Below are positions 14,938-56,973 of a stretch of 60,637 nucleotides of DNA, piece after piece. Below the pieces are notes generated by a model, which worked only from the letters and a program-made list of their open reading frames with translations, was not told where the DNA came from and ran no database searches. Location: NCBI GenBank assembly GCA_027618255.1, contig JAQCFG010000003.1:1-60637 (forward strand). Direction: 5' to 3'. The stretch's first letter is position 1; each line of letters begins with the position of its first letter. The translations under genes and the position numbers were made by a program. The DNA comes from Cyanobacteriota bacterium. GTDB lineage: Bacteria > Cyanobacteriota > Vampirovibrionia > LMEP-6097.

Positions 14938-15997
14938 CGGTAGAATTGGCGTCATTGCGAGCGTTTTGGTGAGTGCAATACTTGATGCCTTGCTCTGTCA
15001 GCATTCTGCCGCGTTGAGTTCTGAGTAAGAACCCTGATTGAATCAAAAAAGGCTCATAGTAATCCTCGATAGTGGATTTGTCTTCACCAGTAATCGCCGC
15101 AATCGTTTCAAGTCCCACTGGTCCGCCGTTATAGTGTTTGAGCATGGAGCTAAGTATCTTGCGGTCCATATTGTCTAAGCCAGTTTGATCAATGCGATAG
15201 GAATTAAGAGCTTGGTTACAAGTTTCTTGATTAACTTCACTGATGTTACTGTGTTCAGCAAAGTCGCGCACTAGTCTTAGTAGGCGGTTGGCGATTCTCG
15301 GTGTTGCTCTACTTCTCGTTGCAATCACCAGAGCTGCTGGCTCATCGAGCTTGAGCCCAAGTGTTTTGGCGTTAGTTTGAATAATTTGAGCAAGCTCCTC
15401 TTTGGAGTAGTATTCCATTCTGTGTATATGAATAAATCTATCTCTCAGTGGCGCACTGATGAAACCTAGTTTGGTAGTGGCTCCTACCAAAATGAATTTG
15501 TTAATTTCAAGGCGCATCAAACGTGAGCTAGTGCCCTTGCCGCTACCGATATCAATTTGATAATCCTCAAGCGCTGGATATAAAAGCTCCTCAGTGATTT
15601 TATTAAGACGATGAATCTCATCAATAAAAATCACATCTCCATCATTGGCTGACATTAATATCCCTAGAATATCTTTGGGGCGCTCAAGTGCTGGTGCTGA
15701 AAAAATCTTGGCTTCGGTGCCAAGCTCACTAGCAAGTAAATAAGCTAGAGAGGTTTTGCCAAGCCCTGGCGGGCCGTAAAGTAACAAATGTCCAAGACTA
15801 GAGATGTCTTTGCGTTTCTTAGCTGCACTTATTGAGATTTTGAGGCTTTTGATTAGTTCTTTTTGACCAATATACTCATCAAAATTGTGTGGTCTAAGAT
15901 TGTTGCCACTCTTATTTTCAATACTCAGATCGACTTTAGTTGGCTCAGCGTTAAGCAGACTATTGTTGGATTCTTGATGTGATGAGTTGATAGCCAC
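14933..15997 (-). CDS. ruvB: Holliday junction branch-migration ATPase RuvB
   Basis: RuvB is the hexameric AAA+ motor that drives Holliday junction migration with RuvA. Motifs: LRPHNFDEYIGQ, Walker A GPPGLGKTS, Walker B IFIDEIHRLN, sensor GATTKLGF, LRDRF arginine-finger region and the winged-helix end (GGPVGLETIAA, then IEDYYEPFLIQSGFLLRTQRGR). The start codon is GTG (15997). The last residues (HQNARNDANSTV) are encoded by CGTCATTGCGAGCG-type repeat sequence (14950-14972), so the natural C-terminus has been replaced or extended. A near-palindrome (16010-16025) lies just upstream. Confidence 0.95.
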   Translation of the reverse strand: MAINSSHQESNNSLLNAEPTKVDLSIENKSGNNLRPHNFDEYIGQKELIKSLKISISAAKKRKDISSLGHLLLYGPPGLGKTSLAYLLASELGTEAKIFSAPALERPKDILGILMSANDGDVIFIDEIHRLNKITEELLYPALEDYQIDIGSGKGTSSRLMRLEINKFILVGATTKLGFISAPLRDRFIHIHRMEYYSKEELAQIIQTNAKTLGLKLDEPAALVIATRSRATPRIANRLLRLVRDFAEHSNISEVNQETCNQALNSYRIDQTGLDNMDRKILSSMLKHYNGGPVGLETIAAITGEDKSTIEDYYEPFLIQSGFLLRTQRGRMLTEQGIKYCTHQNARNDANSTV

Positions 15998-25470: not shown

Positions 25471-25494
25471 ATGAAGATACCCGGGATCTGCATT
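25471..25494. repeat. Dispersed CCCGGG palindrome, copy 3
   Basis: ATGAAGATACCCGGGATCTG then CATT matches the arms at 56401-56423 in about 21 of 24 bases. It lies in the 114-base gap before the 25505 gene. Confidence 0.55.
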
Positions 25495-29990: not shown

Positions 29991-30049
29991 TGTGCTGCTT
30001 ATATTATACCCAATGCCCAATGTCGCTCGCAGCCTCCCCTATTTAGACT

Positions 30050-54741: not shown

Positions 54742-56316
54742 ATGTCAAATTTTCGTTACCGCAGTATACAAATACTTATCGCTTTAGCATTCCTTGCTAT
54801 ATTGGGTCGTTTATTTCAATTTCAAATCATCGACGGACAAAAATATTCTGCCTACATCAAGCGTTATGGACAGGCTTACAAACTTAGTCCTGCAAGAGCA
54901 GAGATCGTTGATCGTAATGATAAAGTCCTTGCTTTGGATTTGATGAAGTATACACTTGAATACAATCCAGTTAGTACTAGTGAAGATAGGGGTATGCTTG
55001 CTTTTAGGCTGGAGCAAATTATTGATTTGAAAAACCCAGAAGATCTTAAGGCTCGTTATAGTAAGACTCTTGCGCATGGCTTGAGCCGCGAACAGGCCAA
55101 CAAAATCAGGAAGCTCGATTCTAAATTGCTCTATTTGCGCCAGGTTAGGCGTAGGTTCTACCCACAAGATGAACTGGCTTCTCATGTGCTTGGCTATGTT
55201 GATCTTTATGGACAAGCAAGACAGGGTCTTGAAGTTGATTACCAGAAGAGGCTAGAAGAAGATCCTGAACACAAGCTTAAGTTGAGTTTGGATTCTCGCT
55301 TGCAAGTTTTTGCAGAAAAAGAATTGAAGAAACGAATCGCTGAAACCAAGGCAACGAGAGGGACTGTTTTGTTGATGGAAGTTGCAACGGGACAAATGAT
55401 GGCAATGGCTACTAGTCCTGGTTTTAATCCCAATAACTATTTTGATTTTAGTTTGTCACGAATTAAGAACTGGCCATTGGTTGATGTTTATCAACCTGGT
55501 TCTATTTTTAAAATAGTGACAGTTGCTTCAGCTCTAGAGTCGGGGACTATAGACCTGAGCCATCGTTTTGTAGATGAAGGTTTTTTGGAGATTGATAAAT
55601 GGAAAATCAAAAACCATGAATACAAACTAGGTGAAACCAAAGTTGAAGAATTGAATCTACAAAATTTGTTTGAAAGATCGAGTAATACTTTTGCTGCTCA
55701 TTTGGCTCTGGCAATGGGACCTAAGGTTTTCCATGAATATATTCACAAGTTTGGTTTTGGACAAAAAACAGGGATTGAATTAAGCGGTGAGTCCAAGGGT
55801 ATTTTAATTAAGCACAAAAAATGGCGTAACTCTGATACTGCAACTACTGGCATGGGTCATGGTGCGATTTCAGTTACTCCGCTACAGTTGCTAGCAGCGG
55901 TGAATGTGATTGCTAATGATGGTCTTTGGGTTAGTCCGACTTTGTTTCTTGATACTAAGCCGCTGGCGACTGACAAGTCTGAGCCCATTATAAGCGCTGA
56001 AAATGCTTATGGTGTTAGAAGCCTTTTGGCAAGAGCAATTGATCACAATCTGAAATTTAAATCTAGCATTGCTGGTCGTGTTGATAATTTGACTATCGCT
56101 GGTAAAACTGGTACGGCAGAGAAAATTAAAGAAGGTGGTGGTTATTCTAAGAAAGAAACTGTCGCTTCTTTCTTAGGTTTCTTCCCCGCTTATAATCCTA
56201 AATATATTGCCTTAGTTGTAATTGATGATCCAAAGACAGATGGTCGTTGGGGTGATACTGTGGCTGGACCTTTGTTTAACAAAATCGCTGCTTATACTAG
56301 AGACTTGTATCTATAA
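54742..56316 (+). CDS. ftsI: Penicillin-binding protein FtsI/PBP2-type transpeptidase
   Basis: Class B PBP that cross-links septal peptidoglycan. One N-terminal membrane helix (IQILIALAFLAILGRLFQFQ), the dimerisation domain (ARAEIVDRNDKVLA), then the transpeptidase with SxxK (QPGSIFKIVT), SSN (FERSSNTFAAH) and KTG (AGKTGTAEK). 524 aa is short for the family; a PASTA domain is absent. It is probably co-transcribed with pheA. A palindromic repeat begins 2 bases after its stop. Confidence 0.93.
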   Translation: MSNFRYRSIQILIALAFLAILGRLFQFQIIDGQKYSAYIKRYGQAYKLSPARAEIVDRNDKVLALDLMKYTLEYNPVSTSEDRGMLAFRLEQIIDLKNPEDLKARYSKTLAHGLSREQANKIRKLDSKLLYLRQVRRRFYPQDELASHVLGYVDLYGQARQGLEVDYQKRLEEDPEHKLKLSLDSRLQVFAEKELKKRIAETKATRGTVLLMEVATGQMMAMATSPGFNPNNYFDFSLSRIKNWPLVDVYQPGSIFKIVTVASALESGTIDLSHRFVDEGFLEIDKWKIKNHEYKLGETKVEELNLQNLFERSSNTFAAHLALAMGPKVFHEYIHKFGFGQKTGIELSGESKGILIKHKKWRNSDTATTGMGHGAISVTPLQLLAAVNVIANDGLWVSPTLFLDTKPLATDKSEPIISAENAYGVRSLLARAIDHNLKFKSSIAGRVDNLTIAGKTGTAEKIKEGGGYSKKETVASFLGFFPAYNPKYIALVVIDDPKTDGRWGDTVAGPLFNKIAAYTRDLYL

Positions 56317-56317
56317 A

Positions 56318-56440
56318 ATGGAGACCCCGGGTATCTCCATTTTAATCTATGCTTGCCTTAAATCATTGATATAGCGCGTAAATAATCTCCAACATTAAAA
56401 ATGGAGATACCCGGGGTCTCCATCTTTAATGTTGGAGATA
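56318..56440. repeat. Nested CCCGGG palindromes between ftsI and mqnB
   Basis: Two 23-base units (56318-56340 and 56401-56423) are exact reverse complements of each other. Each can also fold on itself (ATGGAGA...TCTCCAT). The second is enclosed by TCTCCAACATTAAA and TTTAATGTTGGAGA, giving a palindrome of about 53 bp. The second unit encodes the C-terminus of the minus-strand mqnB (DGDPGYLHF, stop). A third related unit is at 25471-25494. Confidence 0.8.
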
Positions 56441-56973
56441 TAATCTTCATGTGCATTTTTATTGGTGTAGTTGGTAACACGCAAATGAGCTGACCAAGGG
56501 ATTTGATGATCACTTGCAACTTTGGCTATACCGTAGAGCTCCATGTTTTCTATAATTGCGTCTGTTTGATAATGTTTAATAATTTGTTTGGAGATAGTCT
56601 CGTCTTGAGTGATTTCAAGACTTGAGAGACATAAAAGATTCTTTGAATCTGGTTGACTGGCGTGAAGGATAGGATAAATATCTTTGATAGTGTAGCTAAG
56701 TCCTTGAACTGAACCGAGATTTAAAAGAGCTGCAGCACTAACTATGATTTGCTCGCCAATCTTGATATTTTGGCTATAGGCACCAGCAGTGCCTACAAAG
56801 ATGATTTCGGAGATATCGTTTCTTGATTGAAGTAGTTTAGAGAGATTGATAGCAGCTTCAAGATAGCCTATACCAACGACCTCTAAAATTGGCTCTTTGC
56901 CTCTCAAATTTGGCAAATTTAATGGATTTTTAGGTAATTCGCTTACACAGGCTGCACAAATAAGGCTTGTCAT
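56395..56973 (-). CDS. mqnB: Probable futalosine hydrolase / nucleoside phosphorylase-family enzyme
   Basis: PNP/MTAN fold. VVGIGYLEAAINL, FVGTAGAYSQNIKIGE, and ENMELYGIAKVASDHQIPW (the ME motif contacts ribose) are present, then the LRVTNYTN block in the position of the R-x-x-S-(D/N) motif. It is 192 aa, a little short. MqnB splits futalosine (or aminofutalosine) into dehypoxanthine futalosine and a purine; the presence of mqnE makes this the best guess, with a general nucleosidase as the alternative. The last nine residues are encoded by a repeat. Confidence 0.6.
   Translation of the reverse strand: MTSLICAACVSELPKNPLNLPNLRGKEPILEVVGIGYLEAAINLSKLLQSRNDISEIIFVGTAGAYSQNIKIGEQIIVSAAALLNLGSVQGLSYTIKDIYPILHASQPDSKNLLCLSSLEITQDETISKQIIKHYQTDAIIENMELYGIAKVASDHQIPWSAHLRVTNYTNKNAHEDYISNIKDGDPGYLHF

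Follow-up and report, generated by a model that had tools for sequence, protein, structure and literature searches.

The window, that is, the whole stretch of 60,637 nucleotides that was analysed, carries a penicillin-binding protein (PBP, transpeptidase) gene at 54742–56316 (+) and, convergent with it, an mqnB-like gene at 56395–56973 (−). A pair of palindromic units lies at their junction. Below, G000 is the genome of the window and G001 that of a sister species, while C and L numbers denote contigs and loci, respectively. The left unit (56315–56343, minus strand), located by the repeat search and a 20-mer match, abuts the stop codon of the PBP gene, at which the element begins, and the right unit occupies 56398–56426 (+); both belong to subfamily A1 of the repeat family described below as family A. 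The 20-mer ATGGAGATACCCGGGGTCTC matches exactly at 56321–56340 (−) and 56401–56420 (+), with 60 bases between the matches, as a previous sequence-only reading of this DNA had stated, whereas shuffled sequences yield a mean of 0.00 matches. The full arms are 29 nt each, 97% reverse-complementary and separated by a 54-nt spacer (56344–56397), whose left end, TTTTAATCT, resembles the spacer start of several further A1 pairs (TTTTTAATCTT), the remainder being site-specific. The larger palindrome proposed around the right unit is real, but its length is 55 bp rather than 53: it spans 56385–56439, with a 9-nt centre and 23-nt arms (56385–56407 and 56417–56439, 96% complementary), and its outer mirror enters the mqnB codons for ISNIK. 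The same reading placed a third, diverged unit near 25471, and a single A1-like unit with three mismatches to the 20-mer is indeed found at 25471–25490 (+); it is absent from the orthologous site in G001.

The window pair, the only one for which folding was calculated, is an inverted doublet able to fold into one hairpin, as in REPIN/RAYT systems: it beats 200 of 200 shuffles both as DNA of the plus strand (z = −7.45) and as RNA of the minus strand (z = −8.38). The Rfam scan of positions 56000–56800 gave no match at the gathering thresholds.

The mqnB-like frame ends with ...NIKDGDPGYLHF* inside the right unit. Residues 184–192, DGDPGYLHF, are encoded by positions 56398–56424 of the unit, read on the minus strand, and the stop codon is at 56395–56397, in agreement with the earlier description of this C-terminus. 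The protein belongs to the phosphorylase superfamily and is of the futalosine hydrolase / MTA nucleosidase type. Among the NCBIfam models, futalosine hydrolase fits it best, but the score is 49 bits against a cut-off of 124.7, hence MqnB is a tentative name; its structural neighbours are MTA/SAH nucleosidases and the futalosine hydrolase of H. pylori. An alignment scan of named genomes yields nine MqnB-like loci, three in Candidatus Melainabacteria, two in Candidatus Caenarcanales, one in a Cyanobacteria bacterium, one in an uncultured bacterium and two in distant bacteria (Oligoflexales, Deltaproteobacteria). The C-terminus seen in G000 does not occur in six more distant relatives (G002–G007), where 21–22 residues, e.g. 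WLSNNEKVSIQTCHIANNFIK, come after a conserved His-x-Asp (Asn-Arg-Glu in G004). Since the tail after the conserved Asp/Glu has 15 residues in G000 and 11 in G001, it has been replaced and shortened; of the two options offered by the sequence-only reading, replacement or extension, the former is retained and the latter is not. In another relative (L085/L130), a different long palindrome is situated directly behind the mqnB stop codon.

The structure predicted from eight sequences has a mean pLDDT of 85.6, the last helix covers residues 174–183, and the pLDDT drops below 50 at residues 185–192. The dN/dS ratio between G000 and G001 is 0.26 over codons 1–176, and the gene has therefore been under purifying selection, although this value does not date the insertion. 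Separately, the synonymous divergence from G001 is 0.24 for the mqnB-like gene and 0.68 for the adjoining PBP gene, perhaps due to recombination. The ISNIK codons may be native, as YISN resembles the W-x-S-N of the family; or they may have been copied into the gene from the element, as their spacer-side twin ATCTCCAACATTAAA resembles ATCTCCAAAATTAAA by the end of the G001 RAYT element.

The units of the window belong to a dispersed family with the conserved core GATACCCGGG, and the genome contains many further copies. Together with the different C-termini of the distant relatives, this goes against both observations that the sequence-only reading had named as its refutation. Exact copies of the core number 34 in G000 (none for the reversed-pattern control) and 27 in G001 (control 0), far above chance, as in REPIN/RAYT systems; one of the 27 is probably the same copy seen on two contig ends, leaving 26. 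A 17-mer core with up to three mismatches has 19 matches in G000 and one in the control. The commonest arrangement in G000 is the inverted pair: 18 of the 34 copies form nine simple pairs CCCGGGTATC...GATACCCGGG, 20–92 nt from start to start. The others are at the transposase gene of C11 (four copies), in a mixed array on C59 (five), in a same-direction (tandem) group on C76 (three), or single (four). The arms define two subfamilies. In G000, A1, with ATGGAGA-type arms, has 16 copies including the three of the window, and A2, with CACCCCGGGTATCACA-type arms, has 18, one of which was assigned by visual inspection, as it lies too near a contig end to be included in the alignment; in G001, the 26 copies are divided into 21 A1 and five A2.

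None of 60 family-A units carries GTAG, nine carry CGTC and 16 carry GACG, and neither GTAG nor CGTC occurs at 56300–56450. With no conserved end tag, family A lacks the unpaired tag of the GTAG-/CGTC-tagged REP superfamily. The A2 units are largely without self-complementarity beyond CCCGGG. We rejected a conserved hairpin in which the two arms of a unit, inner and outer, pair with each other: such pairing did not exceed that of shuffles (218 of 2000). We also rejected the idea that the family extends through the class: among the 38 relatives besides G001 (G002–G039), matches to the GATACCCGGG 10-mer number 0–6 per genome, and in the 37 other than G002 the numbers are often similar to the controls (six in G039, control 5; four in G034, control 0). 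The two 10-mer matches in G002, which is of the same genus, both lack arms.

The origin of the pairs has two possible descriptions, a unit-spacer-unit element or two separate solo REP insertions around host DNA. In the latter case the spacer in the window would be the old mqnB tail, one frame of which reads NVGDYLRAISMI*. The spacers of the A pairs vary between sites, a fact that fits two insertions and counts against a single element; the frame past the right unit reads as a plausible helix followed by a stop; and the inner arms of A1 partners match no better than those taken across sites (324 and 252 of 720 permutations in the two genomes). On the other hand, inverted pairs prevail, the outer arms of A1 partners are more alike than those taken from different sites (12 and 26 of 720 permutations, six pairs per genome), and the window spacer begins like several other A1 spacers, while at its other end it is similar to the inner end of the G001 RAYT element. 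Hence two separate insertions seem unlikely, and we retain the single element.

Six genes in G000 match Pfam Y1_Tnp, one of them an 81-aa fragment. For the five proteins scanned (the fragment was left out), the best NCBIfam family is REP_Tyr_transpos (NF047646); since the scores, 52–68 bits, are under the curated cut-off of 80, although that of Pfam Y1_Tnp is passed, we regard these proteins as RAYT-like and do not file them as RAYTs, retaining the name as a shorthand. The Y1 transposase gene of C11 is flanked by A2 doublets with 19-nt perfect inverted ends. The orthologous locus in G001 (C46) encodes a protein 63% identical to it and has A1 ends (37 nt at 95%). Thus, a RAYT gene is flanked by the same repeats that are dispersed in the genome, as in REPIN/RAYT systems, by A2 on C11 and by A1 on C46, and the window pair, being A1, is of the type found at the ends of the G001 gene. 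The terminal inverted repeats are unrelated to the GTAG REPs and are dispersed as dimers, which is the organization of TIRtrons/TIRYTs. The A2 share is 18 of 34 copies in G000, where the RAYT ends are A2, and five of 26 in G001, where they are A1 (Fisher p = 0.015, a generous value because the copies are not independent events). The higher frequency of A2 in the genome whose RAYT has A2 ends is what a spread of such ends by their own RAYT would produce.

A second family, B (GGGTCGTATCCTGACATTGGACA..., up to three mismatches), has 17 copies in G000, 33 in G001 and one in G002, with no matches in the controls. The RAYT gene of C102 has a family-B copy at either end, and the right-hand copy overlaps the gene end. 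The protein encoded by this gene (L063, G000) has a C-terminal helix-turn-helix resembling that of DnaA, a weak match below the cut-offs.

In G001, the closest sister species (87% identity), the mqnB/PBP junction also contains a palindromic pair, but of an unrelated sequence, GGGTCGTATCCTG..., that is, of family B, itself situated at the ends of a RAYT gene, that of C102. The MqnB-like protein of G001 ends with GSYPVI, encoded by the family-B unit. In both genomes the PBP stop codon is followed immediately by the element; towards mqnB, the match between the genomes ends after the same Asp codon plus one base.

The convergent genes, the strong hairpin, the T-rich flank and one terminator-like site at 56401–56423 (+), against 0.3 expected, would also suit a transcription terminator selected at this place rather than a mobile element. 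However, the same core is found at 34 places, including transposase gene ends, it occurs between non-convergent genes as well, some orthologous sites lack it, and the same junction in G001 is occupied by unrelated sequence. Hence we consider termination very improbable as the origin of the feature, and continue with the mobile element.

For each of the 16 family-A sites of G000 the corresponding place in G001 was determined; the family-B sites were compared in part. Seven of the 16 have the same subfamily in G001 (C2:22.9k, C4, C33, C42, C48, C59, C60) and three have the other one (the C11 RAYT locus, C41 and C62; at C62 the G000 copy lies at the end of a contig, and in G001 an A1 pair encloses A2). 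Two sites (C2:25.7k and mqnB) hold family B instead, and at C76 the other subfamily is situated elsewhere in the same gap. The remaining three sites have no family-A element in G001: C1 (C1:5812) and window position 25476 are without an element, and C30 has a GTCATTGCGAG-type repeat instead. Conversely, on C103 of G001 an A1 unit is situated where G000 carries another palindrome (L097/L174), CGATACCCCGCCCGGGGTGGGGTATCG, near 20.1 kb of C17. At 30012–30037 of the window there is an apparent decayed half of a family-B REP, and G001 has an intact family-B pair there.

Given two of the 16 A sites holding B and 18 B sites in G001, a rough Poisson estimate of this coincidence is 0.010, 0.038 or 0.084 for 1900, 950 or 600 assumed junctions, respectively (0.009, 0.034 and 0.076 with 17 sites). 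As the test is post hoc, an excess of A/B coincidence at the same junctions is suggestive only. By crude ORF calls, an ORF stop lies inside the element at six of 22 sites in G000 (leaving out the C11 RAYT locus, L061, L137, L141 and L143) and at nine of 28 sites in G001 (leaving out L087, L095, L148 and L164).

Other repeats were noticed as well. Sites of the GTCATTGCGAG type (at most one mismatch) are seen in the window at 14951, 17102, 44026, 48096, 48152, 60296 and 60364; two inverted pairs are among them, 48096/48152 with a distance of 56 nt and 60296/60364 with one of 68 nt, and the sites may represent one more dispersed palindromic element. A repeat of about 90 bp, likewise dispersed (approximately positions 37–125 of the query) and found beside a family-A copy of G001, has many matches in G000 (C10, C2, C34, C6 and others).

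Taken together, the feature is very probably REPIN-like, a pair of inverted REP/TIR units around a short spacer that derives from a RAYT (Y1/HUH transposase) element and is non-autonomous, although no target-site duplication has been shown. E. coli TnpA-REP recognises folded single-stranded REPs (PMC8266576), and by analogy the transposase would recognise the folded single-stranded ends and move the pair. A copy would then have settled at the junction of the convergent genes, in the position seen in the sequence, where it follows the PBP stop codon and occupies the last codons of mqnB. The mqnB frame, as read from the DNA, runs into the right unit, takes its last residues from it and stops just behind. 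As the enzyme core is predicted to be intact and the new tail disordered, the insertion was probably tolerated. The hairpin may in addition serve as a terminator. The other family at the G001 junction would reflect either replacement of an older element or an independent insertion. It is thus mobilisation and the effect on MqnB that we infer. A further suggestion, which we find doubtful, is that certain gene ends are standing docking sites of RAYT elements, where unrelated REPIN families displace one another, also by nesting (G001 C35), and each time rewrite the host C-terminus.

Among the literature matches listed, a small part of all matches, none deals with REP elements of Melainabacteria. 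In Rickettsia, palindromic repeats are known to become incorporated into proteins, and the Rickettsia palindromic elements are likened to the present one by description. Of these, RPE-4 and RPE-6 of R. conorii are counted among the CGTC elements in the account of Di Nocera (2013, PMC3733652), which describes them as found without association with a transposase gene. REPINs, as described by Bertels and Rainey (2011, PMC3116915), are dispersed inverted hairpin-forming REP doublets tied to a RAYT with the same ends. The present elements share the doublets with a spacer, the hairpin, the dispersal and the RAYT with matching ends, but have tens of copies and occur in another bacterial group, and A2 forms inverted ends rather than self-contained hairpins.

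The RAYT relatives flanked by non-GTAG inverted repeats that are dispersed as dimers (TIRtrons/TIRYTs, PMC3733652) are similar in these properties and in REP-supplied stop codons. The same paper describes REPs close behind convergent genes, within ORFs and at ORF ends, where they give stop codons, and different REPs at about the same recB site in two Xanthomonas species. Each piece thus has a precedent; unlike in the cases described there, one gene end carries RAYT-flanking repeats of two families, a different one in each of two sister species. Finally, the orthologous RAYT locus, A2-ended in G000 and A1-ended in G001, is like the orthoswitch, in which orthologous RAYT loci of related strains have different REP classes ('Evolution of REP diversity', 2013, PMC3686654), described there from fluorescent pseudomonads and stenotrophomonads rather than from this group.

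REPs in genes, REP stop codons and RAYT/REP orthoswitches are already published, and the present system is a further case. At least two element families make up this RAYT-type system, which is present in genomes related to Melainabacteria and provides a clean two-species comparison: the ends of a RAYT locus differ by subfamily, the copy numbers go along with this difference, and one gene end is rewritten by two elements. Sequencing further members of the genus would make it possible to test replacement against re-insertion at such sites.
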